Source: Candidatus Saccharimonadota bacterium (GTDB lineage: Bacteria > Patescibacteriota > Saccharimonadia > Saccharimonadales > UBA4665). From it: a stretch of DNA of 63,808 bases. Below the pieces are notes generated by a model. That model worked only from the letters and a program-made list of their open reading frames with translations, was not told the origin of the DNA and ran no database searches. Both the position numbers and the translations under genes were made by a program. Below, piece by piece: positions 16,926-37,405 of this stretch; position 1 is the stretch's first letter; each line of letters begins with the position of its first letter. The DNA lies in the NCBI GenBank assembly GCA_024635495.1, contig JAGXIT010000001.1, positions 1 through 63,808 of the forward strand. Direction: 5' to 3'.

Positions 16926-18431
16926 TTAGAATTGTCGACGCTTGCGGAAACTGCTACGAACCGGCTCCGGCTCGACAGGAGTGCCAGCAAGTGGCTTCTC
17001 GTCATTGAGCGCATCGGCGAGTGGTAATGGTGAAGCGCCTGAATCTGCAGCATTGTAGGCCCGCTTATGTTTGCGGAATAGGATGTGTCGGTAGCCGAGG
17101 AAGCCTCCGACAAGCGCGATGGTACTTATAGCGATAACATTGCCTGCACCGGTATTTGGCAGCTCGGTGACTGGTGCTTCACAGCGCCTATCATCAGCTG
17201 GAATACTTGCATCGTATTTACATGGAGTACAGCGGATATCACCGACTGGTATGCCCGGTTTACACTGTGGCACTGGCGGCTTAGTGGGAGTGACTACCGC
17301 AAGACAAGTTGGCGCTGTCACCGTCTCACCGTCTACCGTGAAACGTAGCACCGCACTGGCACTATAATTCCCCGCCTTCACATATGAATGCTCTGTAGAG
17401 ACTGTTGCGCCGTCTGTAGATTTCACGCCTGTCTTCGTCTCGCCATCACCGAAGTCAAAATCTGCTGAAATGAACTGAGCGCCGTTGCCATACTCAATCG
17501 TCGCGGTAAAGCGATAACTATAGGTTTTCTGGTCGAGTATCTCTCCACCCAGCTGGCCACATAGATAGTACGGAAGCTTGACGGTGATGTCCTTTTGGCA
17601 GCCAGTGGTTGAAGATGTAATGGTTGTACTGCCTGGTGCGCTGGCATAGACCGTAACTTTTGCAGTAAAGGTGCCCTCCTTGGTGTACTTATGATTCACC
17701 GTTGAGCTACCGCTCGATTTCGTCACGGTACTACTGCCATCGCCAAAGTCATAGACGTACTTGGTGATACTTGCGAGGCCAGAGGTTGAGCCTTTTGACG
17801 TAAAGTCGTAGGTATTGAGCTTACCCGAAACAACTGTGTAGCTTAGTGCGTCACACACGGCGCTCGACTTCACAACCTTGGCAGTAATAGGGTTACCACA
17901 CGAATCAACCACCATAAACTCTGGAGTGCCAGTGCTGTCGAACAGCACATAGCCAGTCATGTAGCTGTAGCCAACGAAAGTTTGAGTCGTATAGTTGCCA
18001 TAGATCGTCGTGCCACCCCCACTCACTGTTTTCATATCTGGACCCGTATGGGTACTTTGCCATCGACCGTAGCTAAATGCCTCAGTCGCCACAGTCTTTC
18101 CATCTACGACGACACGACCATCTTTATAAAATAATGCTGGCTTGGCAGAGCTTACAAAACGGTCGTAATCACTTGAGGTAAAGCCAAACGCAGCATAGAG
18201 ACCTGCAAGGTCCTTGTGCCCCCTGCTGTCGCCATTTTTTATCTGCGCGATAAAGTCACTCTTTGAGCTAAAACCACAGTTCATAACTGAGTTGGTATTA
18301 CACTCCATCTGACGCGCAAAAACGTGCGGCGAGAGCTGTGTAACGGTGAATGTGCCGATTGCGAGTACTAAGCTAAGACCGACGGTAAACGCTAGCTTGC
18401 GGCGAAGTGATCCTGAGAATAGTTTTTTCAT
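16926..18431 (-). CDS. secreted PKD-domain surface protein with LPNTG motif
   Basis: A 501-aa probable cell-surface protein. The signal peptide (KLAFTVGLSLVLAIGTFTVTQ) is followed by a unique N-terminal region containing Cys pairs (MECNTNSVMNCGF). Two PKD-like beta-sandwiches have the typical cores YDFGDGSST...NHKYTKEG and FDFGDGETK...EHSYVKAG. A Pro-rich linker leads to the sortase-type motif TELPNTGAG, a membrane helix and a basic stretch (RKHKR), then an unusually long cytoplasmic tail of about 40 residues. The start is placed at MKKLFSG because AGGA lies 9 nt upstream of that ATG. PKD domains usually mediate adhesion; the binding partner is unknown, and no sortase gene is in the window. 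Confidence 0.85.
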   Translation of the reverse strand: MKKLFSGSLRRKLAFTVGLSLVLAIGTFTVTQLSPHVFARQMECNTNSVMNCGFSSKSDFIAQIKNGDSRGHKDLAGLYAAFGFTSSDYDRFVSSAKPALFYKDGRVVVDGKTVATEAFSYGRWQSTHTGPDMKTVSGGGTTIYGNYTTQTFVGYSYMTGYVLFDSTGTPEFMVVDSCGNPITAKVVKSSAVCDALSYTVVSGKLNTYDFTSKGSTSGLASITKYVYDFGDGSSTVTKSSGSSTVNHKYTKEGTFTAKVTVYASAPGSTTITSSTTGCQKDITVKLPYYLCGQLGGEILDQKTYSYRFTATIEYGNGAQFISADFDFGDGETKTGVKSTDGATVSTEHSYVKAGNYSASAVLRFTVDGETVTAPTCLAVVTPTKPPVPQCKPGIPVGDIRCTPCKYDASIPADDRRCEAPVTELPNTGAGNVIAISTIALVGGFLGYRHILFRKHKRAYNAADSGASPLPLADALNDEKPLAGTPVEPEPVRSSFRKRRQF

Positions 18432-18460
18432 ATTATGCATCCTGCTTGTATATAGTTCTC

Positions 18461-18572: not shown

Positions 18573-20003
18573 TTATTCATTGCCGAGGGACTTGCGACCC
18601 AAGAACAACCGATAGCCAATTGTGCTAACTATAGCAACTGCACCGAAGATTCCGATGACATCACCAGCACCAGTGTTTGGTAGCTCAGGTGGGGTCTCTG
18701 GAGTCGTAAAGGTTACTGTTGCTGCACAGCCTTCGCTTGTGATGCCAGATACGTCATTCTCATCGACGATGCTAAATGTTAGCTTCGTAGAGATACCGTA
18801 TGTACCATCAGCCGCGTAGGTATGTGTTGCACTCAACTTGTCGGTAGTGACAACTTTGCCATCACCGAAATTGAATGTAACTAGCTTGAGGGTTGCACCG
18901 TTCTTGGCAGTGTAGCCATCGAGGCTAGCTGTCACAGTACGGTTGTCGCCCTTCGTAACCTTCAAGAGGTCACAGCTGTAAACAGGCTTTTCAGTCGTCG
19001 TACATTCCTTGTTCACTGTCACGTCAGCCGTGTTGTAGTAGTAGTTCATACCACTTGGCTGAATGTATGCAATGTTGCGGAACTTATTTGTACCACACTC
19101 AAGCTTGCTGAGTGCTGGGGTTTTCGCCTCAAACAGTACATAGCCGGCTGAGCCTGGGTTGTATGTACCGATTATGACACCGTTGCTTCCTACAATTGCG
19201 TCGCTAATTTGCGTTGCATTTGGGAAGTTAGTGTTCTTCAAAAGCGCAGAACCAGCTACATATGTCATGCCTGCTGGAAGCTGATCACGAGCGACGACAT
19301 CAGTCTGGACACTGTTGCCAGTGTTCTTGTATGCAATCTCGTACTGAACAGTTTCGCCAGGCTTTGCGGTAATACTTCGTTTCCACTCGGTATCACCCTT
19401 GATACGAACATACTTGTCTACACTCACACCAGGTACCATGACACGTGCAAGCACGGTTACAGTTGCCGAGAAGTTATAGCAAGGCTTTTCATCTTCGAGG
19501 GTAAGGCCAGAACCACTTGAAACAATACTGTCAGAAATGACCGTATCGGTCCAAATTGGAGCGTCATTTGTGCCGGTGTTGTGGCGCCATACTGCGCTAC
19601 CTGGGAGGTATTGCAAGTATGCGTCTGAACGGTCCAAATTGACGGTTGTTTTTGCGGTTACAGTGTTAGTATTATCGCCACTAATTGTGGCTGTTTGGGT
19701 TTGGGTCTTACCAGCCGTGCTCGGGATATCAATTTTTACATTGAGATTCTTTGCAATTTTACCTGAATCGGGCAATTCTCGGTTGTGGTAATAGACCTCG
19801 ATTTTCACTACGTCGTTGTAACTTGCGTTTGTAGATTTGCTGTACGTTGTAGCGCCAGCAGTCTTGTTTGCTACACCCATTGTCCCTTCGATGCTAACTG
19901 ATGCAGCCATCGCTTGTGACATAGGTACAAACATTGCAAGAGCAACGATAGCGCCGGCGACTACTCGCTTCTTGGCACTATTGAATAACTTTGAAATATT
20001 CAT
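18573..20003 (-). CDS. secreted DUF11/PKD surface protein with LPNTG anchor
   Basis: A 476-aa probable major surface protein. The signal peptide is VVAGAIVALAMFVPMSQAMAA. The middle (about residues 225-330) contains a DUF11-type isopeptide-like repeat (VQYEIAYKNTGNSVQTDVVARDQLPAGMTY split over two strands). It is followed by a PKD-like module (TFNFGDGKVV...SATHTYAADG) and the anchor PELPNTGAG, membrane helix and short basic tail. AAGGAG lies 7 nt before the ATG. A perfect consensus promoter and a roughly 150-nt leader point to very high expression. Parallel architecture with the neighbouring 501-aa protein suggests a functional pair. Confidence 0.87.
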   Translation of the reverse strand: MNISKLFNSAKKRVVAGAIVALAMFVPMSQAMAASVSIEGTMGVANKTAGATTYSKSTNASYNDVVKIEVYYHNRELPDSGKIAKNLNVKIDIPSTAGKTQTQTATISGDNTNTVTAKTTVNLDRSDAYLQYLPGSAVWRHNTGTNDAPIWTDTVISDSIVSSGSGLTLEDEKPCYNFSATVTVLARVMVPGVSVDKYVRIKGDTEWKRSITAKPGETVQYEIAYKNTGNSVQTDVVARDQLPAGMTYVAGSALLKNTNFPNATQISDAIVGSNGVIIGTYNPGSAGYVLFEAKTPALSKLECGTNKFRNIAYIQPSGMNYYYNTADVTVNKECTTTEKPVYSCDLLKVTKGDNRTVTASLDGYTAKNGATLKLVTFNFGDGKVVTTDKLSATHTYAADGTYGISTKLTFSIVDENDVSGITSEGCAATVTFTTPETPPELPNTGAGDVIGIFGAVAIVSTIGYRLFLGRKSLGNE

Positions 20004-22246: not shown

Positions 22247-22831
22247 GATGTTTCTCCTTGAGTTGTAGTGTGGTTCCCATTACGGGAGGTGGCTGCTTCG
22301 AGAAGCAGCGGTTTGAGTCTCCCGCAGGGAGTAACTCACCGGATAGCCGAATATCGGCTGCCCAGTGAGTTACTCCAAAGGTAATCATTCTATCTATCTC
22401 AGAGAAGTTTCTAGTAATTTGGTTTGCATGCTTGATAGCATGCGTACGCTACAGTTCTGCGCACCGGGAACAGCAGAGGTAATAAATCACCTCGACACCG
22501 CTCAACCAGAGCAGAGTACTACAGATGTGAGTGACCAGAAGTAACAAGGGTAGTAAAGCACTACTAGCTTGCTCTATGGCGAACAGAGATAAACGCTAGC
22601 CATCTAGTGCTAGCATTGCTACTGCCTCTGTTATATTGATCAATCTCATCATCTGCAGTACTCTGCTCTAGCCTTTCCAGCCCGCAGCCCCTCCTACTTC
22701 ATGTCGGACCCCTTACCCTGGCAAATGAGCCGAAGGGGATGAGGCGAAAGCCGAACTTTAGAGCAGGAGGAGAGCTGTTCCGAATTCACTTCGAAACAGC
22801 GAGGAGGACTAGGTCCTCCCGTAGTTATGTA
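22247..22831. other. about 0.6 kb of consecutive hairpins upstream of the island genes
   Basis: No gene supported. Inverted repeats in order: GCTGCTTC/GAAGCAGC (22292-22309); a 12-bp stem at 22328-22339/22365-22376 enclosing AGCCGA/TCGGCT; GCATGC twice (22426-22431, 22438-22443); GAGGT/ACCTC (22476-22493); and a 20-base stem with one mismatch (22508-22527 with 22650-22669). The last encloses GTAGT/ACTAC, AACAGAG/CTCTGTT and GCTAGC/GCTAGC pairs. Then come CCCCTT/AAGGGG (22709-22738), a GGC-GAAA-GCC hairpin, GCTGTT/AACAGC (22774-22800) and GGAGGAC/GTCCTCC (22803-22819). It could be a large structured RNA, a long 5' UTR of the minus-strand genes, or a recombination or replication region. Confidence 0.55.
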
Positions 22832-22849
22832 CTGTAATGATCTGATTTA
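22832..22849 (-). repeat. right 18-bp inverted repeat of the island
   Basis: TGTAATGATCTGATTTAT on the plus strand, the exact reverse complement of 20259-20276. Confidence 0.75.
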
Positions 22850-23067
22850 TTAACGTACCCCTGTTACGATACTCCCGGGTACAGATGGCAACGAAGCACA
22901 AAACAGCGGTCTAAACGTCCGCTGAATCTTTGTTTCGTATTGCCCACCTGTTAAGAATGGTTTCCCACTCACGCCCGGTTCTGGAGTTATCTCTTACGCA
23001 CCACAACCTAGGATGCTTACAATATATCAGATAATTGCGCTTTTGTCAATAAACAAGCAGAAGCTTT
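22850..23067. other. gap between island and histidine kinase gene
   Basis: No gene. Two small hairpins are seen: GTACCC/GGGTAC (22855-22882) and AGCGG/CCGCT (22905-22923). Nothing else is recognised. Confidence 0.35.
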
Positions 23068-25245
23068 TTACTTATCCTCTTCTTTGTGTTCTAGCGCGTG
23101 ACTCGCCTTCGAGAAGCGGAAGCCGAAGGTACTGCCCTTGCCTTCTTCACTATCAAATATAATTGCGCCATTCTGTGTCGCCACTACCTTCTTGGACATG
23201 AAGAGTCCAAGACCCGTGCCATCTGGTCGGATCTTGCGCGCATTTCCCGCTCGGTAGAATTTGCCGAATAGGTGCTTCTGGTCGGCTCGTGGTACGCCGA
23301 TGCCACTATCCTTCACACTGAACTCTACGGCTGTTTCCGTCTCATCGAGCTCAATTGTGACTGTGCCGCCAGGTGACGTGTAGTAAATGGCATTGTCCAT
23401 GAAATTCATGACTACTTGGTGAATCTTAGTCTCGTCGAGCATGAGCGTCGGGTAATTTTCTGGCGCTTCATAGTTGATGGTTATATCTCGAGCTTTGGCG
23501 GTCTCACGCAGTTGGTTAATCTCAGCGTCGACGATATCGCGCAAATCTACCGGCGACGGATCGATGACGAACTTGCCGGTGTTGATCCGCGAGAGGTTGA
23601 GTAGATCGGAGATGAGATAGACCATACGCTGTGAGCTCACGTACGCCTGATTGAGCATCTGCTTTTGCGTATCAGTCACATTGCCTGCATCGCCCTCCAG
23701 AACCATGCTCAAGTAACCCTTGATGCTCGTGAGTGGCGTGCGCAACTGATGTGAGGCCATACTGATGAACTCGTCTTTGGCTTCATCGAGCTTGCGGAGC
23801 TTATCATTGCTTGTCCGCAACTTCTTAGTAGCATCATCGATCTTTTCCTGGAGGGTTACGTTAAATTTCTGAATTTCTTCATACTGCAGCGCGTTCTGCA
23901 AGGCAATAGAGAATTCACCCATGACAACTCGGATTGTTTCTTTATCTTGGCTGTCGTAAGCAACACCGCTCTTTTTTGTGCCCAATATCAATAAGCCGTA
24001 CTTGCTCTCTTGAGCATCTGAGCGCAATACAATTCGCTGTATGAAGCTAATGCGCATATCGGACATCAATTCATGCAGCTCTGGGCTATCTTCTATAACC
24101 TCGTCGGCCAAAATCGTATCCATGCCTAGTTGAGTCATTATTTTCTCAAGCTCTTCGATCTTACTTTCGTCAGGGATATGATGTACGTCACCGAGGAGCC
24201 TTCGCCCCACATACGCCGTTGGGGATAGGTCAAACACCACATATTGCGGTTTAATCGAATCGAGAATAATCGTGCTGGTCCTCGACACTAACATATCGAT
24301 ATCTATAGACACCACTGCTGCTCGATTCGCTCGAACTAAGACATCTTGTGGGTCGTATGCGTCACGAAAGAATAATTTGTTTGAAAGCCGATCAAACCAC
24401 GAACGAACTTTTGAATAATTCGTAGCCAAGACCGTCGCAGCAATAATAGTGATGAGCAACTCATTGAGCTCGAGCTTTGCACCAATCAACCGGGTGATGA
24501 TGTATACACCCGGCGCGACATACACAGCACCGAGCGCAACAACTGTAAGAGAATAAGCTAGCGCGCGAACAACGTAGAATCGTATATCAAAAAGTTTGTG
24601 TCTAATAATGGCTATAGATGTAAAGAGCGAAAATACAATAACAAACACCGGTGCGTAGGCAACACTATTTGAATTACCTAATGCGGGCAAAATTGCACTC
24701 AGTATAATTCCGGGGACAACCGAAAAAATAAAGCCTAGAAGTATGTACTGCAATTGCTGCCGTACCTTTTGGTTGGCATGACTATACTGCTTCGCCAGCA
24801 AAACACTGCCAATCGAGAAATAGACTAGAAGAGTCATAATCAGAATTGGGTAAGCAACGCCAGTTATGAGAGACACGCCATCTGTACTAATAGCTTTAAT
24901 ATTGTAGCTTGTCGGTACCAGGGCAAGAAGCAGGGCCGTTGGCATAAACAGCATTACTCGCAACAGAGGCGCAACGTGCCGGTTTGCGTATGCTAGAGAA
25001 AACAGCAAAAAGCTCGTTGGTAGAAGTGCAGGACCAGCTAACGCCAAACGAGAGAAAAACAGATACTTAGCGCTGTCACCCATAAAGACATTGGCGAATA
25101 GGTTCGCAATCAGCCACAGCAAACCAGCAAACATGAATACACTCAGCCAGCGGTTAACTGACGCTTTTGGGTTACTGTACAGCACAACTGCTATCAAAGC
25201 GATGAGGCTGATTCCGGAGGTAATGAGAATAATAGTCGTAAGCAT
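23068..25245 (-). CDS. multi-pass membrane sensor histidine kinase
   Basis: A 725-aa sensor kinase. Residues about 1-270 hold roughly eight or nine membrane helices, resembling the 7TM-type or ComP-like histidine-kinase sensor region, including the family-like HKLFDIRFYVVRAL. A GAF-like domain follows (about 300-455), then a short coiled coil (LQEKIDDATKKLRTSNDKLRKL). HisKA carries the phospho-acceptor His in ASHQLRTPLTSIKGY, and HATPase_c has MNFMDNAIYYT, DSGIGVP and GTGLGLFMSKK. TAGAAT ends 12 nt before the ATG, so it may have its own near-leaderless promoter. It follows the GNAT gene by 24 bp; no receiver lies on its strand, but two stand-alone receivers lie across the divergent region. 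Confidence 0.92.
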   Translation of the reverse strand: MLTTIILITSGISLIALIAVVLYSNPKASVNRWLSVFMFAGLLWLIANLFANVFMGDSAKYLFFSRLALAGPALLPTSFLLFSLAYANRHVAPLLRVMLFMPTALLLALVPTSYNIKAISTDGVSLITGVAYPILIMTLLVYFSIGSVLLAKQYSHANQKVRQQLQYILLGFIFSVVPGIILSAILPALGNSNSVAYAPVFVIVFSLFTSIAIIRHKLFDIRFYVVRALAYSLTVVALGAVYVAPGVYIITRLIGAKLELNELLITIIAATVLATNYSKVRSWFDRLSNKLFFRDAYDPQDVLVRANRAAVVSIDIDMLVSRTSTIILDSIKPQYVVFDLSPTAYVGRRLLGDVHHIPDESKIEELEKIMTQLGMDTILADEVIEDSPELHELMSDMRISFIQRIVLRSDAQESKYGLLILGTKKSGVAYDSQDKETIRVVMGEFSIALQNALQYEEIQKFNVTLQEKIDDATKKLRTSNDKLRKLDEAKDEFISMASHQLRTPLTSIKGYLSMVLEGDAGNVTDTQKQMLNQAYVSSQRMVYLISDLLNLSRINTGKFVIDPSPVDLRDIVDAEINQLRETAKARDITINYEAPENYPTLMLDETKIHQVVMNFMDNAIYYTSPGGTVTIELDETETAVEFSVKDSGIGVPRADQKHLFGKFYRAGNARKIRPDGTGLGLFMSKKVVATQNGAIIFDSEEGKGSTFGFRFSKASHALEHKEEDK

Positions 25246-25257
25246 TTTACAACTGTT

Positions 25258-25263
25258 ATTCTA
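25258..25263 (-). promoter_or_regulatory. -10 element of the histidine kinase
   Basis: CTGTTAGAATA on the minus strand (extended -10 TG-T-TAGAAT), ending 12 nt before the ATG. The identical 11-mer precedes alaS and mnmA. It lies within CTGTTA/TAACAG dyad symmetry. Confidence 0.45.
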
Positions 25264-25269
25264 ACAGAA

Positions 25270-26613
25270 CTATTTATCTGATGCGCGTAATTTCAGCTTC
25301 GTAAACCAAAAATGCGTAATGAATTTCTTATCATGCATGTGTTTATCGACTTCTTCGAGGTCCATGACGTGGGCTGCACAGTCCCCGCCCTGGTATTCCT
25401 TGACATCGCCAAGCTGCTCAAACGTAAAACCGTGTTTATCATTCATATGCTGGACACGCTCGGGCTCCATGATGATACCCCAGTATTTTATACCCCGCTC
25501 TCTTGCGTCACGATAGGCAAGGCGCCAAAGCCTTGTATTCGCTCCTTTGCCACGATGGTTTACAGCTACAGCAGCTAGAGCAAGCTCTTCGAGCTCACCG
25601 TTGCTGTACAGGGTTGCCAGTTCTTCTTTTTTTGATTCATCATAAAATGACATATCCTTGATAAATGGTGGCTGCTTCTCGGTATTACGGAAGATACGTG
25701 ACATCCCCACACACTCTTCGCCTTCAAACGCTACAATAACCCGGCTTTCAGGGAAATATTCGGTATAGCCTTCTTGCTCAAGGTTGCCGTAGTCGTTTTC
25801 ATCCCATACCGCCTGTTCGAGTATCGCGGCTTTTTCGCGCTCAATCGAGTCATCGGTGATACCGTATTTCAAACCGTGCTTATCCCGGTCAGCCCACTGC
25901 TCGACTGGGTTACGTTTGCTTTCGATCGAGCTCTTCTGAATATTCCTGACTGCAGCGACGCCACTTCCAACGGCCAAAACTGCCCCAGTGGTTATAAGGT
26001 TATCAGTGGCCAGTTCAACAAGCTTGGGCCCAGCCAAACCTAACGTTCCCAAAACCGCAGAAAGCCCGAGGGCAGTCCTGATACCATGGCTACGCAGTTC
26101 TTTCTTCGTAATATTTGGTGAATCGTATTTCTTCATCACCATACTGACTGCACTGCCGCCTATAAGCGCTGCTGTCGCATACGTTGTTTTGGAAAATTTG
26201 TCGTCCTCTCGTCGAGAGAAATGGCGTTCCATAAATTGGCGCGCAGAGGTTATCCCCTTGCTCGCCGTGTTTGTGTCTAGTAGTGGTGCAGCAGCGACAG
26301 CAGCAGCACCTTCAACCAACAGGGTTGAGCCGCCAAATGCGATCGCAGAGGCAATTGGGCTGTGAGACACACCCGCCACGCCAAGTGTCATTGCACCGCG
26401 AATCAACTCATTGGCCGGGCTAACCTCTGCCGCGATGACCGCCCCACTGAGAATATGTGTCATGCGTTTGCGCCACGAGAGTTTGATAGTCTCGGCTTCA
26501 GCGCTTTCGGGTGCTATAGGTTGCTCAATATGCTCAACAACTAAACCATCAGCGCCTTGAGTGGCACGTATTTCTGGTGGTACCGGGAATGGTAAGGCCG
26601 ACGGTTGAGTCAT
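25270..26613 (-). CDS. membrane protein with C-terminal GNAT acyltransferase domain
   Basis: 447 aa, probable acyltransferase. Residues about 50-225 contain four hydrophobic Ala/Gly-rich segments that are probably membrane-embedded. Residues about 260-425 form a GNAT-like domain. Its pattern (WDENDYG, then ECVGMSRIFRNTEKQPPF, ELEELALAAVAV, RGKGANTRLWRLAYRDARERGI, HGFTFEQLG) resembles in layout the LuxI/FeeM branch of N-acyl synthases as well as ordinary N-acetyltransferases. Substrate unknown. It starts 5 bp after the arginine decarboxylase gene, so acylation of agmatine or a related amine is a reasonable hypothesis but unproven. Confidence 0.7.
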   Translation of the reverse strand: MTQPSALPFPVPPEIRATQGADGLVVEHIEQPIAPESAEAETIKLSWRKRMTHILSGAVIAAEVSPANELIRGAMTLGVAGVSHSPIASAIAFGGSTLLVEGAAAVAAAPLLDTNTASKGITSARQFMERHFSRREDDKFSKTTYATAALIGGSAVSMVMKKYDSPNITKKELRSHGIRTALGLSAVLGTLGLAGPKLVELATDNLITTGAVLAVGSGVAAVRNIQKSSIESKRNPVEQWADRDKHGLKYGITDDSIEREKAAILEQAVWDENDYGNLEQEGYTEYFPESRVIVAFEGEECVGMSRIFRNTEKQPPFIKDMSFYDESKKEELATLYSNGELEELALAAVAVNHRGKGANTRLWRLAYRDARERGIKYWGIIMEPERVQHMNDKHGFTFEQLGDVKEYQGGDCAAHVMDLEEVDKHMHDKKFITHFWFTKLKLRASDK

Positions 26614-26618
26614 TTTAC

Positions 26619-27101
26619 TTAACTACTCCAGGTTTCATTCTGATATACCGCCACAGCCATAGCGCATACTGGCAGACTATCGCAGACTTCCGAAACAACC
26701 TTCATATGAATCTCACCAAAATCAATGTCTCTGGTTTTCATTAGTGTCTTCAGGCTACGACGAATAAGCTCTGCAACTTCGTCTGGGCTATGACCTTCAT
26801 GCTCTACAAACAGACCCTTCTTTGTCTTGGGATCTTGCACCCAACCTACGCCAGCGCTCACCATTTCACCATGCACGGACGTCCGCTTCTGGGCCATAAC
26901 CACGTAGAGCTTATCACCCCAAGTGCCCGGGAGTTCGACCTTAATACCGCCGTCATGCAAGATAAGATCGCTCTTGGGCGGTATAACTGAGCTCAGATAG
27001 ATAAGGTTGTAGTTGGCAATGCCCGCGTTAAACAAGGCTGTGTCAAAAGCAGATAGCTCTGTTTCTCCCTTACCTGCGCTTGTCCCGATGTGTATATTCA
27101 T
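26619..27101 (-). CDS. pyruvoyl-dependent arginine decarboxylase
   Basis: Decarboxylates arginine to agmatine, the first step of one polyamine route, using a pyruvoyl group made by self-cleavage. The 160-aa product matches the PvlArgDC family: IGTSAGKGETELSAFD near the N-terminus, then NLIYLSSVIPP with Ser37-Ser38 as the likely cleavage site, and GEMVSAGVGWVQD. Full length for this small family. It is first in a tight unit with the GNAT gene (5-bp gap) and the sensor kinase. A hairpin (AAATTCTA/TAGAATTT) lies in its leader. Confidence 0.9.
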   Translation of the reverse strand: MNIHIGTSAGKGETELSAFDTALFNAGIANYNLIYLSSVIPPKSDLILHDGGIKVELPGTWGDKLYVVMAQKRTSVHGEMVSAGVGWVQDPKTKKGLFVEHEGHSPDEVAELIRRSLKTLMKTRDIDFGEIHMKVVSEVCDSLPVCAMAVAVYQNETWSS

Positions 27102-27138
27102 ACTATTTCCGAATATTCCTTGTATTACTATTTATATG

Positions 27139-27158
27139 AAATTCTATGTTTAGAATTT
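27139..27158 (-). promoter_or_regulatory. leader hairpin of the decarboxylase gene
   Basis: Perfect 8-bp stem AAATTCTA/TAGAATTT with loop TGTT, about 40 nt upstream of the start codon. Confidence 0.4.
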
Positions 27159-27232
27159 GTGCAAAATAAAAAACCACCCCAAACCGTGCCCTTTCAGGCG
27201 AGTTTGCGATGATTTGTCTACTAAGGTTCATA

Positions 27233-27266
27233 TGTAACTTTGTATATTTTAGTATAAAATGTTACA
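27233..27266. promoter_or_regulatory. dyad operator candidate in the divergent region
   Basis: TGTAAC and GTTACA separated by 22 bp, with an inner ATTTTA/TAAAAT pair. It lies between the decarboxylase unit and the two receivers and could bind a dimeric regulator acting on both. Confidence 0.4.
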
Positions 27267-27374
27267 AAAGTCAAGTTTATTTTGCTTTTTAGCTTTTTGA
27301 CTCGGTTTCATTTTATCACCCTGCCACCGGTAGCGACAATCAACCGTGTAGATATCGCAACGATATGAATGTGT

Positions 27375-27380
27375 TACTAT
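27375..27380 (+). promoter_or_regulatory. -10 element of the first receiver
   Basis: TACTAT ends 8 nt before the ATG at 27389 and supports that start over one 24 nt earlier. Confidence 0.4.
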
Positions 27381-27388
27381 TTCATCAT

Positions 27389-27793
27389 ATGGATGCAACT
27401 GCGAAAAAAATCGCAATTATAGAAGATGAGGTTGCAATTCGGCGGCTGTATCAGACCAAGCTCGAGCTTGAGGGCTTTACGGTAAGCACGGCACAAGATG
27501 GACGCGAAGGCTACCAGCTCCTCAAGAATACAAAACCAGATTTGGTCCTGCTCGACCTACGCATGCCTGGCATGAACGGCGATGAGCTGCTGGCAAAAGT
27601 CCGTACCACCGATTGGGGTGCTGACTTGCGCGTGATAATCCTGACGAATATCAGCCGAGACGAGGCACCACACTCGCTTCGAATATTGCATGTCGATAGA
27701 TACATCGTGAAGGCACATTACACTCCGGCACAGGTTACGGAAGTCGCGCGTGAAGTGCTTGGTATCAAGAATCTGTCCTCGGGCAAAAATTAA
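27389..27793 (+). CDS. stand-alone response-regulator receiver, copy 1
   Basis: A 134-aa CheY-like receiver without an output domain. IAIIEDEVA supplies the acidic pocket, the phospho-acceptor Asp is in LVLLDLRMPGMNG, the Thr is in VIILTNIS, and the conserved Lys is in YIVKAHYTP. It is closely paralogous to the next gene. With no DNA-binding domain it must act by protein contact or phosphotransfer. The likely kinase partner is the membrane sensor kinase on the opposite strand. Start chosen from the -10 spacing. Confidence 0.9.
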   Translation: MDATAKKIAIIEDEVAIRRLYQTKLELEGFTVSTAQDGREGYQLLKNTKPDLVLLDLRMPGMNGDELLAKVRTTDWGADLRVIILTNISRDEAPHSLRILHVDRYIVKAHYTPAQVTEVAREVLGIKNLSSGKN

Positions 27794-27803
27794 CCAAAAA
27801 GGG

Positions 27804-27809
27804 TATACT
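27804..27809 (+). promoter_or_regulatory. -10 element of the second receiver
   Basis: TATACT ends 6 nt before the ATG at 27816, suggesting a separate leaderless transcript for the second receiver. Confidence 0.4.
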
Positions 27810-27815
27810 GAAGCT

Positions 27816-28184
27816 ATGACGAAAATTGCTATTATCGAAGATGATCAAGCTATCAGCCACATGTACCGCATGAAATTTGAAGCGGAAGGCTACAGTGTCG
27901 AAACAGCTGCCAATGGTAAAATCGGACTAGAGCTCGCCGAATACCAGAAACCAGATGTCATCCTGCTCGATCTCATGATGCCTGAGATGAATGGCGACGA
28001 AATGCTGCAAAAACTCCGCGAAACGAGCTGGGGCAAAGATATCCACGTTATCATCCTGACCAATATGGGCGAACAAGAGGCGCCAGACATACTCAAGACG
28101 CTCGGCGTCGAGAAGTTCATCGTCAAGGCAGAAATGACCCCCCGACAGGTCGCCGAAATGGTAAAGGCGGAACTGGACTCGTAA
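27816..28184 (+). CDS. stand-alone response-regulator receiver, copy 2
   Basis: 122-aa CheY-like receiver, tandem paralogue of the preceding gene. Motifs are IAIIEDDQA, VILLDLMMPEMNG with the phospho-acceptor Asp, VIILTNMG and FIVKAEMTP. The start is ATG 27816 (MTKIAIIED), because TATACT ends 6 nt upstream and the longer reading overlaps the previous gene. murD follows 9 bp downstream. Confidence 0.92.
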   Translation: MTKIAIIEDDQAISHMYRMKFEAEGYSVETAANGKIGLELAEYQKPDVILLDLMMPEMNGDEMLQKLRETSWGKDIHVIILTNMGEQEAPDILKTLGVEKFIVKAEMTPRQVAEMVKAELDS

Positions 28185-28193
28185 TACTCGCCT

Positions 28194-29507
28194 ATGCCAC
28201 GAAACGTTGCAATTCTCGGCTACACTGACCAGGGCAAAAGCGCCGTAGACTACTGGCGCGCACTTGGTGACACTGTCACTGTCTGCGATTCACGCACTGA
28301 TATTGATATCCCCAGCGATTTCCAGATGAAACTCGGCGAGCAGTACCTCGAGAAACTCGACGCATTTGATGTGATCGTACGCGGAGCACCGACGATCCAC
28401 CCTCGTGAGATTGTCGCTGCCAATGACGAATCTATCCTCGCAAAAGTGACGAGCAATACCAATGAGTTCCTGCGCGTTTGCCTGACGAAAAACGTCATCG
28501 GCGTGACTGGTACCAAAGGCAAAGGCACAACGAGCACACTTATCGCTCGCATGCTCGAAGCAGCAGGCCAGCGCGTGCATCTCGGTGGTAACATCGGTAT
28601 ACCACCACTTGAACTATTGAAAAACGATATCCAACCCGATGATTGGGTTGTTCTGGAGCTTGCGAACTTCCAGCTGATAGACCTCGCGTATTCACCGCAT
28701 ATCGGCGTCTGCTTGATGATTGCGCCAGAGCACCTGAACTGGCACAAAGACATGCAAGAATACCTCACTGCAAAGAGCCAACTTTTTGCCCATCAAACAT
28801 CCGAAGATATCGCCGTCTACCTTGCGAATGATGAAAACTCCAAAGAAATTGCCGAAACTGGCGCCGGCAGAAAGATACCCTACTTTGCCTCGCCCGGGGC
28901 TTGGGTGAATGGCAATATGGTCACCATAGACGGACAAGAAATATGTACGACTGATGAGATTAGCCTGCTCGGCGAGCATAACTGGCAAAATATCTGTGCG
29001 GCTATCACGGCTGTCTGGCACGCAGGAGTCCAAAATGGTGCGGCCATTCGCTCCATAGTCACCTCATTTTCCGGGCTCGAGCATCGACTCGAATTTGTCC
29101 GAGAACTCGACGGTGCACGCTACTACGACGACAGTTTCGGCACGACACCAGAGACCGCCATCGTTGCACTACAAGCCTTCGACGAGCCAAAGGTTATTAT
29201 CCTTGGGGGATCAGACAAAGGCGCTGATTATAACGAATTAGCGAAAACTATTGCGACACAGAATGTACGCAAAGTCATCCTCATCGGTGACCAAGCAGAA
29301 AAAATCGGTGAAGCGCTTGAGGCTGCAGACTATAGCGAAACGACCGCAAATCTGAATAACATGATAGAAATGGTCGACGCAGCCCGAGCTGCTGCAGAGC
29401 CAGGTGACATCGTCTTACTCTCGACTGCGTGCGCCAGCTTCGACATGTTCAAAGACTACAAGGACCGCGGTGATCAATTCAAAACTGCCGTTCTTACACT
29501 GAAATAA
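28194..29507 (+). CDS. murD: UDP-N-acetylmuramoyl-L-alanine:D-glutamate ligase
   Basis: Adds D-glutamate to UDP-MurNAc-L-Ala in cytoplasmic peptidoglycan precursor synthesis. 437 aa, normal length. The N-terminal Rossmann domain begins VAILGYTDQGKSAVDYW. The ATP-binding loop is VTGTKGKGTTST, the Mur-ligase Glu is in LELANFQL, and the C-terminal domain has YYDDSFGTTPET, GGSDKGADY and LLSTACASFDMFKDY. It is placed directly behind the two receivers, possibly in one transcript. Presence of murD implies the cell makes its own wall. Confidence 0.94.
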   Translation: MPRNVAILGYTDQGKSAVDYWRALGDTVTVCDSRTDIDIPSDFQMKLGEQYLEKLDAFDVIVRGAPTIHPREIVAANDESILAKVTSNTNEFLRVCLTKNVIGVTGTKGKGTTSTLIARMLEAAGQRVHLGGNIGIPPLELLKNDIQPDDWVVLELANFQLIDLAYSPHIGVCLMIAPEHLNWHKDMQEYLTAKSQLFAHQTSEDIAVYLANDENSKEIAETGAGRKIPYFASPGAWVNGNMVTIDGQEICTTDEISLLGEHNWQNICAAITAVWHAGVQNGAAIRSIVTSFSGLEHRLEFVRELDGARYYDDSFGTTPETAIVALQAFDEPKVIILGGSDKGADYNELAKTIATQNVRKVILIGDQAEKIGEALEAADYSETTANLNNMIEMVDAARAAAEPGDIVLLSTACASFDMFKDYKDRGDQFKTAVLTLK

Positions 29508-35095: not shown

Positions 35096-35626
35096 ATGAA
35101 TAAACATCTAGCAGTAGTTGGTGTCACCGTAGCAGTCGCCCTTGCAGGGGTCACTGGCGTTGGAGTAGCAAATGCGGCCACTACAAATACCGGCTCTGAC
35201 TCAAGAATGACAAGTCTAGTACAGGCCGTCGCCAGCAAATTTAATCTCAAAACAACTGACGTTCAAGCCGTGTTCGACACACAACGAAGTAAAGATCAAG
35301 CAACGCGGACCGCAGAGGTTACGAGTGAGCTAAAACAACTCGTGAGTGATGGCAAGCTCACACAAACTCAATCAGACGCGATACTGGCCAAACGAGCTGA
35401 GCTCATAAGTGCACGTGATTCGAACAAAACAAGCATGAAAGATATGACAAGCAGCGAACGCAAGGCTGCCATGGATGAACGAAAAGCGACAATGGACGCT
35501 TGGTTTAGTGACAACAACATATCGACCGATTATCGATATCTCATAGGTGGTGAGCATGGTGGTCCCGAGGGACATCGTGGGCCGGATGGTGCCCCAAACA
35601 GATCCACAGATTCTGACGCAAGTTAG
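35096..35626 (+). CDS. exported protein, DUF2680-like, 176 aa
   Basis: Signal peptide HLAVVGVTVAVALAGVTGVGVANAA. The mature part has a short helical module (ASKFNLKTTDVQAVFDTQR...LVSDGKLTQTQSDAIL) like DUF2680/YckD proteins, then a charged helix (SSERKAAMDERKATMDAW) and a Gly/His/Pro-rich tail (GGEHGGPEGHRGP) that could bind metal. GGAGGA precedes the ATG. Its position upstream of a two-component system suggests it is an envelope sensor accessory or a target of that system. Confidence 0.7.
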   Translation: MNKHLAVVGVTVAVALAGVTGVGVANAATTNTGSDSRMTSLVQAVASKFNLKTTDVQAVFDTQRSKDQATRTAEVTSELKQLVSDGKLTQTQSDAILAKRAELISARDSNKTSMKDMTSSERKAAMDERKATMDAWFSDNNISTDYRYLIGGEHGGPEGHRGPDGAPNRSTDSDAS

Positions 35627-35648
35627 AAAATCGCAGCACACTACACTC

Positions 35649-35678
35649 GAGAAGGGGCTACATAAACCGCCCCTTCTC
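35649..35678 (+). terminator. hairpin between the exported protein and the two-component genes
   Basis: 10-bp perfect stem GAGAAGGGGC/GCCCCTTCTC with a 10-nt loop. There is no strong T tract, and TATAAT (35682-35687) follows at once, so it may be an attenuator plus internal promoter. Confidence 0.55.
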
Positions 35679-35717
35679 AGTTATAATTCAGACAAGCTCC
35701 GTAGACTTGAGATTATT

Positions 35718-36401
35718 ATGAAAGTATTACTCGTAGAAGATGAACCTAAAATTGCACGCGCTATTAAGATGGGGCTTGAACAAGAACGCTCAACTGTTGA
35801 AGTTGTGCACGACGGCCCGAGTGGGCTTGCCAGTGCAATAGCCGAGGATTACGATGTCATTATTCTCGATAGAATGTTACCGGGTGGCATGGACGGACTC
35901 GAAATCTGTGAAAAAATCCGAGCAAAAGGCATCAAAACGCCAGTATTGATGCTCACCGCAAAGGGTCAAATACGCGACCGAGTAAATGGCCTAAACGCCG
36001 GCGCGGATGACTACCTCGTCAAACCATTTTCTTTCGAAGAATTGCTCGCTCGCTTACGTGCACTGACTCGGCGCCCACAAGAAACAAATGTGGCCGAGCT
36101 ACATGTGGCCGATCTCAAGCTTGATACAATTTCGTACGATGTCAAACGAGCCGGTACACGAATCAATCTTTCTCAGACTGAGTATTCCCTGCTTGAATAT
36201 TTGATGCGTAATAAAAACCGAGTACTCAGCAAGTCAAACATTATCAATCATGTCTGGGACTTTGATGCAGACGTTTTACCTAATACCGTTGAGGCATATA
36301 TAGGGTACCTGCGCACCAAGGTGGATAAGCCATTTGACGGGCCACTCATCCACACCGTACGTGGATTTGGCTATCGTGTCGGAGACACGACGGAGGATTA
36401 A
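35718..36401 (+). CDS. OmpR-family response regulator
   Basis: 227 aa. The N-terminal receiver has LLVEDEPKIA, the phospho-acceptor Asp in VIILDRMLPGG, LMLTAKG and the Lys in DYLVKPFSF. The C-terminal winged helix has INLSQTEYSLLEYLMRNKN, TVEAYIGYLRTKVD and IHTVRGFGYRV. It is a DNA-binding regulator paired with the kinase whose ATG overlaps its stop (TAATG). Confidence 0.95.
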   Translation: MKVLLVEDEPKIARAIKMGLEQERSTVEVVHDGPSGLASAIAEDYDVIILDRMLPGGMDGLEICEKIRAKGIKTPVLMLTAKGQIRDRVNGLNAGADDYLVKPFSFEELLARLRALTRRPQETNVAELHVADLKLDTISYDVKRAGTRINLSQTEYSLLEYLMRNKNRVLSKSNIINHVWDFDADVLPNTVEAYIGYLRTKVDKPFDGPLIHTVRGFGYRVGDTTED

Positions 36402-37405
36402 TGAAAAACTTATTCCAGTCAACGACATTACAACTGACAGCTTGGTACACACTCATTTTGATGGTGATTAGCTTGATATTCAGTATTGTGGTATTTCAGG
36501 TTTCATATTCTGAGCTTCAATATGGTTTTCGAGTTAGTCCTGGTACTCAGGCGCAGAATTTTTTTGAATTCGGTGATTTGGGCACACTTGAATCTTGGCG
36601 TAATGATCGCATCCAAGAGTCTAAGTCTCACCTCATAGGAAGTTTAGTACTTTTCAATGTATTTGTTTTAGCCGCTGGCGCCGCTGGGAGCTACATGCTT
36701 GCTCGCCGCACGCTCAAGCCAGTCGAAGAAGCCATGCAAGTCCAAGCGCGCTTCAGCAGTGACGCAGCTCACGAGCTACGTACCCCCCTTACTGTCATGC
36801 AATCTGAAATAGAAGTCGGGCTACGCAGCAAAGAATCGAGTAAAGCTGGCTATGGTGAATTATTGAGGAGTAATCTCGAGGAAATACAGCACATGCGCAC
36901 CCTGACCGACAGACTACTCCTACTGGCGAACCAGAACGAATTGTCGATGCAACCAACGTCTCTTGAACAAATTGCGATAGAGGCAATGAACCGTGGTATT
37001 CCTCTTGCACAAAAAAAGCATATTGAGATACAGAACGATATTGGACCAATCCAGGTAAATGGAAATGCCGATAGCCTGACCGACACGCTCTATATCCTTA
37101 TTGATAACGCTATCAAATACTGCCCACGAAAGTCACTCATAAAACTTACTGCAGCGAAAAAAGGTCATCGGGTTGAACTTCGCATACGAGATAATGGCCC
37201 CGGCATTACAGCAGATGATTTGCCGCATATTTTTGACCGCTTTTATCGAGCAGATATGTCTCGTAGTAATCAAAATGTCAGTGGACACGGCCTCGGACTT
37301 TCGATTGCCCAACGTGTCATCAAAGCACATGACGGCACTATAAGTGCGAAGAATAATGCCCGCGGCAAGGGTGTCACATTCCTCATAACCCTGCCCCTTG
37401 CGTAG
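36401..37405 (+). CDS. sensor histidine kinase of the two-component pair
   Basis: 334 aa. Two membrane helices (about residues 9-30 and 79-98) flank a short extracytoplasmic loop of about 50 residues. HisKA holds the phospho-acceptor His in SSDAAHELRTPLTVMQ. HATPase_c has LIDNAIKYCP, IRDNGPGI and GHGLGLSIAQRVI. The small sensor loop and the exported gene upstream suggest sensing of an envelope signal. Confidence 0.94.
   Translation: MKNLFQSTTLQLTAWYTLILMVISLIFSIVVFQVSYSELQYGFRVSPGTQAQNFFEFGDLGTLESWRNDRIQESKSHLIGSLVLFNVFVLAAGAAGSYMLARRTLKPVEEAMQVQARFSSDAAHELRTPLTVMQSEIEVGLRSKESSKAGYGELLRSNLEEIQHMRTLTDRLLLLANQNELSMQPTSLEQIAIEAMNRGIPLAQKKHIEIQNDIGPIQVNGNADSLTDTLYILIDNAIKYCPRKSLIKLTAAKKGHRVELRIRDNGPGITADDLPHIFDRFYRADMSRSNQNVSGHGLGLSIAQRVIKAHDGTISAKNNARGKGVTFLITLPLA

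Follow-up and report, generated by a model that had tools for sequence, protein, structure and literature searches.

A murD-anchored polymorphic locus in Saccharibacteria couples exchangeable enzyme cassettes to a covarying sensor domain: a candidate private-signal system

We analysed a 63,808-nucleotide window (the whole stretch of DNA under study, contig JAGXIT010000001.1) of a Saccharibacterial genome of 820 kb, which is assembled in 5 contigs and 99.8% complete, for a locus that may make and sense a small-molecule signal. Three tightly packed genes on the minus strand encode a pyruvoyl-dependent arginine decarboxylase (PvlArgDC), a fusion of a membrane domain with a GNAT acyltransferase domain, and a seven-transmembrane (7TM) sensor histidine kinase, while the opposite strand carries two lone receivers (RR1 and RR2) and murD (Table 1). 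An original prediction, drawn from the letters of the window, had described the first five of these genes. All five reading frames are intact, with gaps of 24 bp between the kinase and GNAT genes and of 5 bp between the GNAT and decarboxylase genes, and the predicted names and coordinates were right except for two details: RR2, which probably starts at the ATG at 27816 and not at 27750, and a GAF domain, which was seen via orthologues only.

Table 1. Features of the locus, in window coordinates.
Feature	Coordinates	Strand	Evidence and remarks
7TM sensor histidine kinase, 725 aa	23068..25245	-	HisKA_7TM 2.4e-17, HisKA 5.5e-19, HATPase 2.3e-26
HATPase_c catalytic domain	23110..23436	-	Pfam; 70% mean identity
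HisKA phospho-acceptor domain, SHQLRTPL	23575..23781	-	Pfam; 78% mean identity over 59 loci
7TM sensor domain, residues 1-221, cassette-covarying part	24583..25245	-	HisKA_7TM family; sliding test
Membrane + GNAT fusion, 447 aa	25270..26613	-	Acetyltransf_1 5.9e-6; N-terminal half hydrophobic
GNAT domain of FeeM/LuxI-type modelled fold, residues 236-447	25270..25908	-	AlphaFold2 + Foldseek/VIA-align
N-terminal hydrophobic membrane domain, residues ~50-225, no known family	25939..26466	-	
Pyruvoyl-dependent arginine decarboxylase, 160 aa	26619..27101	-	Pfam PvlArgDC 5.4e-28; PDB 1n2m 2e-12
34-bp dyad TGTAAC...GTTACA, candidate operator	27233..27266	.	14-nt arms 86% complementary
Sigma-70-like promoter TTGACT-17-TAAAAT, decarboxylase operon	27246..27274	-	consensus match only; overlaps dyad
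RR1, lone CheY-like receiver, phospho-acceptor motif LLDLRMP	27365..27793, start 27365 or 27389	+	Response_reg 1.6e-21
RR2, lone receiver, 122 aa	27816..28184	+	Response_reg 6e-22
murD	28194..29507	+	TIGR01087 4.9e-102; 9 bp past RR2; same neighbourhood across order

The decarboxylase matched PF01862 over residues 7-153 with 98.4 bits (cut-off 22.7) and scored below the NCBIfam equivalog cut-off of TIGR00286 (74.6 vs 106.95). Its self-cleavage site LSSVIPP is intact, with S38 (codon 26988-26990) as the predicted pyruvoyl serine, and residues S37, S38, D20, N32 and E100 are invariant in an alignment with 15 relatives and the M. jannaschii enzyme. Profile and self-processing site together bear out the predicted identity, and the enzyme would make agmatine from arginine. 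Agmatinase and other arginase-family enzymes, agmatine deiminase and spermidine synthase were all undetectable in this 99.8%-complete genome, and control genomes confirmed that the searches work. Agmatine is therefore left without an evident polyamine fate, and a polyamine pathway role for the decarboxylase was rejected because no partner genes were detected in the genome.

The two halves of the fusion protein are separate adjacent genes in loci L049 and L107. When 149 genomes of the order were searched with the fusion, all matches except the window's own protein fell in the membrane part, and in 6 other genomes of this set the membrane domain stands as a separate gene beside PvlArgDC. Only 3 of 295 genomes searched have the FeeM-like GNAT type, each time next to a decarboxylase, the membrane domain and a kinase. 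The Pfam FeeM profile matched the window protein (0.0017, 18.6 bits) and its L049 orthologue (0.00027, 21.2 bits), in both cases under the curated cut-off of 27 bits. The GNAT domain was modelled with AlphaFold2 from two sequences only (pLDDT 78, pTM 0.78). FeeM was the top match of this model in Foldseek (5.6e-9) and in VIA-align (PDB 2g0b; Z 17.3 over 171 residues, rmsd 2.5, 16-18% identity), followed in VIA-align by LasI (Z 16.2), TofI (15.0), BjaI (15.0), RpaI and MesI, over a range of 16.2 to 14.4. The best generic, non-autoinducer GNAT reached Z 14.4, and the autoinducer synthases lie above or level with that score. The nearest solved structures to the model are thus FeeM and the autoinducer synthases, not ordinary acetyltransferases. 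The domain had been proposed to be a LuxI/FeeM-like acyltransferase; the fold and layout hold, but not the N-acyl-homoserine lactone (AHL) reaction. While a GxxR motif is present, the protein lacks ExDxxD and E-x-[S/G]-R, the motifs of AHL synthases, and Autoind_synth (PF00765) gave no match at E up to 1. The motifs rule out an AHL synthase here, though other alleles of the locus (type K14, below) keep them. The modelled fold makes FeeM-type N-acyltransferase the most fitting label for the domain. This kinship emerged from the fold search alone: a sequence-profile search of the PDB with three window-type GNATs returned nothing relevant, and hhalign, with few sequences to compare, detected no homology between the window GNAT and the tandem/Actinobacterial, DUF2156, c38 and c40 GNAT classes.

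The kinase matched the HisKA_7TM, HisKA and HATPase profiles, as expected for the predicted multi-transmembrane sensor kinase. The GAF domain was undetectable in the window kinase, while GAF_3 was matched by 6 of 11 orthologues, and the call is reasonable but indirect, by way of these orthologues. Neither receiver has an output domain, as had been predicted, and both keep the phospho-acceptor aspartate motif and the lysine. The predicted dyad between the divergent genes is real and present as a single copy in the window. The promoter that it overlaps belongs to a class of sites not in excess over shuffled sequence. A search of 18 related loci revealed no such dyad ahead of the decarboxylase gene, and it was rejected as a conserved element. 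A good match to a sigma-70-like promoter (TTGACA-17-TATATT, 23049-23021, minus strand) lies just beyond the kinase stop. About 770 nt at 22250-23060 hold no convincing gene and could encode an unannotated non-coding RNA; no known RNA of Rfam matched the gap at 22.2-23.0 kb.

The gene order whose conservation the original prediction had set as a test recurs in other Saccharibacteria, where the decarboxylase, membrane domain, acyltransferase, 7TM kinase, receivers and murD are again found together. With the structural matches of the GNAT model given above, the original prediction withstood both of the tests it had set for itself. PvlArgDC is present in 24 of 393 genomes of the order. These belong to 22 genera, and searches of genus-mates found no further copy, a scatter that fits a gene that moves. 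The recurring surroundings are receivers and murD on one side and, on the other, the membrane domain and/or a GNAT, a tandem GNAT-like protein, DUF2156 or EamA, and then the sensor kinase. Wherever enough flank was available, a Saccharibacterial decarboxylase locus proved to have a sensor kinase at most about 3.3 kb away (L069 was judged from its gene map). Because the 820-kb genome holds only five HisKA kinases, this association exceeds chance. One of the five belongs to a second receiver/kinase pair in the window (35547-37405, plus strand). A type-B form of the locus (L056, L060, L064, L068, L069 and Kerfeldbacterium L080) combines a shorter kinase with two further proteins, the separately encoded 7TM protein c10 and the small, conserved c12. 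A further listing of type-B loci comprises L042, L047, L056, L064, L068, L069, L080, L118 and L145; they pair with PvlArgDC, ODC-like or AdoMetDC-like decarboxylases. The multi-transmembrane c10 bears a PxPSxxDxxYF motif, and c12 (~92 aa, no known family) occurs in most type-B loci. In hhalign c10 showed no match to the window-type 7TM, and its kinship with the N-terminus of the Actinobacterial sensor, being suggestive only (77%, E 2e-5), was not retained.

murD belongs to the unit and is its conserved anchor. We took murD neighbourhoods regardless of the decarboxylase (murD was located in 284 of 368 genomes, and 80 neighbourhoods, L113-L192, were retrieved). A kinase lies near murD in 53 of the 80, usually with one to three lone receivers, and in 72 of 101 loci when the decarboxylase-selected set is added. 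The genes that separate receiver and kinase are exchanged wholesale between Saccharibacterial loci. Clustering of 238 cassette genes from 72 loci, with types set from the cassette genes alone, gave Pfam-assigned ThiF-like proteins (K1), class I methyltransferases (K7), nitroreductases (K8), class I/II aminotransferases (K15), AdoMetDC-like pyruvoyl decarboxylases (K20), ODC-like PLP decarboxylases (K22) and GNATs. Judged by eye from their sequences alone, K6 resembles an AMP-forming ligase and K10 an ABC ATPase. The LuxI-like K14 occurs with a ThiF-like enzyme. All five K14 proteins match Acetyltransf_5 (best 7.8e-9) and carry ExDxxD and E-x-S-R, and two of the five match Autoind_synth. Other enzyme sets are methyltransferases or a ThiF/nitroreductase/aminotransferase combination. 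Decarboxylases of three unrelated families fill one slot (PvlArgDC in 15 loci, AdoMetDC-like pyruvoyl enzymes in 4 and ODC-like PLP enzymes in 3), and a GNAT or DUF2156 gene accompanies them in the cassette of 20 of these 22 loci. This convergence is good evidence that the decarboxylase alleles serve to produce an amine and to modify it in a second step. The AdoMet_dc-family K20 genes stand in that slot in L119, L121, L145 and L165, beside GNATs or DUF2156 and a sensor kinase, and are possibly amino-acid decarboxylases rather than AdoMetDC. Whatever its content, the cassette was located 5' of the kinase gene at every one of 59 loci, sharing its direction in 53, with a median gap of 43 bp.

These data bear on the simplest account of the window genes, namely ordinary arginine or polyamine metabolism (acid tolerance, synthesis of agmatine or polyamines, SpeG-like acetylation) placed beside a two-component system by chance. 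Archaeal PvlArgDC has roles in arginine and polyamine metabolism. Such a metabolic role is also held by PvlArgDC in the aaxABC system of Chlamydia (PMC2720952). The window protein is of the same enzyme family and keeps its self-processing site, but unlike in these systems its gene is linked to a GNAT and a sensor, in a genome with no detected agmatine-using pathway genes. The missing agmatinase, agmatine deiminase and spermidine synthase, the swapping of enzymes within a maintained gene order, the sensor kinase at every adequately flanked decarboxylase locus and the covariation of sensor and cassette described below make this account very improbable.

The relation between sensor and cassette was assessed on 59 complete 7TM kinases. 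Mean pairwise identity was highest in HisKA (78%) and HATPase (70%), fell to 36% across the GAF-like region and was lowest, at 21%, for the 7TM domain. For pairs with the same cassette type, 7TM identity rose to 27.8% compared to 20.7% for other pairs, whereas the kinase domains exhibited no excess (72.9% vs 73.2%, p 0.25) and murD was similar in both classes (51.6% vs 51.2%). After regression on kinase and murD identity the 7TM excess was 0.0825 (permutation sd 0.005, p ~0.0005), by a permutation test that is not tree-aware, murD identity showing no confounding; it also holds for distant pairs. In a sliding test z was 7-14 over residues 1-225 and about 0 over residues 406-720. The window 7TM is nearest to those of L030, L049 and L048, all PvlArgDC loci. 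Such a 7TM domain, covarying with the cassette next to a kinase core that does not, is the pattern expected of a signal matched to its receptor. The same pattern could arise passively, if recombination moved the cassette and the adjacent 7TM-coding part as one block with no functional specificity, and the constant position of the cassette 5' of the kinase, in all 59 loci and at a short median gap (43 bp), is what this mechanism needs. We regard it as quite improbable: the effect ends near the end of the 7TM domain, no other part of the kinase diverges nearly as much as this domain (21% vs 70-78%), and hitchhiking leaves unexplained why a sensor is retained beside unrelated enzymes.

A further possibility is modification of the envelope under two-component control, in which an amine-containing lipid or wall decoration is made and the 7TM kinase monitors the envelope, not a diffusible signal. 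It would accommodate murD as the anchor, the fusion of the acyltransferase to a membrane domain, the DUF2156 (LPG synthase C-terminal) proteins of several cassettes, and the ABC-transporter-like genes and methyltransferase found in some. On the other hand, the sensor domain varies with the enzymes of the cassette and the kinase domain does not, many cassettes hold soluble small-molecule enzymes with no evident link to lipids, and the modelled GNAT fold is nearest to FeeM and the autoinducer synthases. On balance envelope modification appears unlikely.

We consider it probable that the locus is a system for the synthesis and sensing of a private, quorum-sensing-like signal, the window holding one allele of a polymorphic series. 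PvlArgDC would decarboxylate arginine to agmatine, and the membrane-bound FeeM-like GNAT would acylate agmatine or a related amino compound at the membrane. The acylated product would leave the cell or stay in the membrane and be bound and read by the 7TM domain of the adjoining kinase, possibly in a density-dependent manner. The kinase would then hand its phosphate to one or both of the lone receivers, which are transcribed divergently ahead of murD. With kinase core, receivers and murD kept, the exchange of a synthase cassette and its matching 7TM domain as a pair would yield mutually private signals. The original prediction had an amine made, acylated, exported or embedded in the membrane, and sensed. 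Its pairing of synthesis with sensing is supported by the 7TM domain, which covaries with the cassette when the kinase domain does not; agmatine, its acylation and its export keep the standing of predictions, and acylated agmatine as the specific product of the window allele is a tentative choice, the most economical guess.

Several observations weigh against this private-signal interpretation. The window cassette contains no dedicated exporter, and the receivers have no output domain through which a response would be read. The PvlArgDC group is among those with weaker within-group 7TM excesses (24.5%) and pairs its decarboxylase with several GNAT classes, and a link among the three decarboxylase classes through shared 7TM domains was rejected, as 7TM domains from loci with different decarboxylases resemble one another no more than they resemble the remainder (p 0.31). 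Because the cassette adjoins the 7TM-coding end in every case (59/59), block recombination contributes to the covariation and could account for a share of it. In the largest family of the order, f35, the six murD neighbourhoods sampled (L186-L188, L190-L192) lack the murD-linked 7TM-kinase locus, although a genome of this family (L055/L106) carries the locus at a site apart from murD. Finally, the GNAT of the Actinobacterial relatives described below was rejected as LuxI/FeeM-like: its predicted fold (pLDDT 88) matches generic GNATs such as NatD and PaiA, and FeeM is not preferred.

Mechanistically close to a private signal, and hard to separate from it, is a secreted bioactive compound, antagonistic or host-manipulating, that is made under two-component control and whose detection by the kinase would serve autoinduction or immunity instead of a census. 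The cassettes do resemble small biosynthetic gene clusters with a kinase and receivers, one cassette class has ABC-transporter-like genes, and cultured Saccharibacteria live as epibionts of Actinobacteria. However, most cassettes comprise one to four genes, no resistance or self-protection gene was identified in them, and the best-matching acyltransferases make signals or lipid-like amides. We hold this explanation to be decidedly unlikely.

Elsewhere in the window, two paralogous repeat-rich surface-type proteins are encoded at 16926-18440 and 18573-20003 (minus strand), with a sortase-like LPNTGAG near the C-terminus. Similar surface-type proteins (cluster d4) occur in about 12 Saccharibacterial decarboxylase loci, often past the kinase; they are possibly an output of the system or possibly merely a common type of protein.

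About 15 loci of Actinobacteria have a GNAT gene directly next to a decarboxylase of the same subfamily, and in Acidimicrobiales, Pilimelia and Friedmanniella a multi-transmembrane GGDEF-EAL protein is encoded within 1 kb of them. In two Nocardioides (L077, which is N. ferulae, and L097) a compact operon combines a 7TM-PAS kinase, the decarboxylase, a GNAT and a lone receiver. By hhalign (99.7%, 3e-26), the GNATs of these Actinobacterial loci and the Saccharibacterial tandem GNATs are homologous. In the decarboxylase tree, the type-B Saccharibacterial sequences branch among Actinobacterial ones with moderate support (97/75), which suggests transfer between the two groups. Neither a GNAT of the Actinobacterial type nor a sensor was found near the decarboxylase in the Actinoplanes and Kineosporia loci. 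In twelve loci of Acidimicrobiales and other Actinobacteria (L061, L072, L076, L078, L081-L083, L085, L087, L089, L095 and L096) the GNAT and PvlArgDC genes stand beside a large multi-transmembrane signalling protein, which in those scanned is a GGDEF-EAL protein, often with PAS. A possible role of these Actinobacterial loci is an amine-linked input into cyclic di-GMP signalling.

Among known systems, FeeM, an N-acyl amino acid synthase from soil metagenomes, offers the nearest solved structure to the window GNAT, with a weak Pfam match; the window protein differs from it by a low identity (16-18%), by its fusion to a membrane domain and by its place beside an arginine decarboxylase and a kinase. 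With the AHL synthases of the LuxI family (LasI, TofI, BjaI, RpaI) it has in common the modelled fold (Z 15-16.2) and GxxR, but it lacks ExDxxD and E-x-[S/G]-R, both kept by the K14 alleles of the same locus. The kinases of LuxM/LuxN, CqsA/CqsS and PhcB/PhcS belong to different kinase families from that of the locus. In these three systems, too, a histidine kinase senses a small-molecule signal (PMC8895600, PMC8578825), and the PhcB/PhcS pair of methyltransferase and kinase resembles our methyltransferase alleles in layout; unlike the present locus, they have a fixed chemistry per system and identified downstream regulators. ComQXP(A) of Bacillus shows specificity groups in which the N-terminal membrane part of ComP is highly variable and the cytoplasmic part conserved (PMC4008528). 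The adjacency of synthase, signal and multi-transmembrane kinase and the split between variable membrane part and conserved core recall our locus, but ComQXP retains one enzyme family and a peptide signal, whereas here the enzyme family is exchanged and no peptide gene was identified. SpeD-derived pyruvoyl ornithine/arginine decarboxylases have been tied to polyamine synthesis clusters (PMC10407285); AdoMet_dc-family genes fill the decarboxylase slot of the four K20 loci, but in the company of GNATs or DUF2156 and a sensor kinase.

The general idea of quorum sensing by synthase-kinase pairs in the Candidate Phyla Radiation (CPR) is not new: Bernard et al. 2020 predicted complete quorum-sensing systems in these bacteria, with 18 adjacencies of a LuxI homologue and a kinase and 51 of CqsA and a CqsS-like kinase (PMC7567580). 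Some K14 alleles may be among their LuxI cases. The main text of that paper mentions no decarboxylase, GNAT, 7TM domain or murD, and we saw neither a polymorphic locus nor sensor covariation in it. In the open-access library searched we found no report of decarboxylase, acyltransferase and kinase loci in CPR, of a murD-anchored polymorphic locus, or of covariation of its sensor.

Most Saccharibacteria from the environment have yet to be brought into culture, and the means by which CPR bacteria perceive one another and their hosts are still to be established. A covarying pair of synthase cassette and sensor predicts both the genes that would make a signal and the domain that would read it. Known pherotype systems vary the signal inside a single family of enzymes; the present locus replaces the family as well, on a kinase frame that stays constant. 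It is possible, as a more tentative generalisation, that one frame of kinase, receivers and murD takes unrelated cassettes (decarboxylase plus acyltransferase, LuxI-like, methyltransferase, ThiF/nitroreductase/aminotransferase, transporter), each with a matching 7TM domain, and that related lineages thereby use different signal chemistries. Cross-talk between epibiont and host might then be possible, because the arginine-decarboxylase version is related to that of Actinobacteria, a phylum that includes known hosts, and some of the Saccharibacterial decarboxylases branch there. As the same logic of decarboxylase, GNAT and sensor is found in the cultivable Nocardioides and Pilimelia, its chemistry is directly testable.

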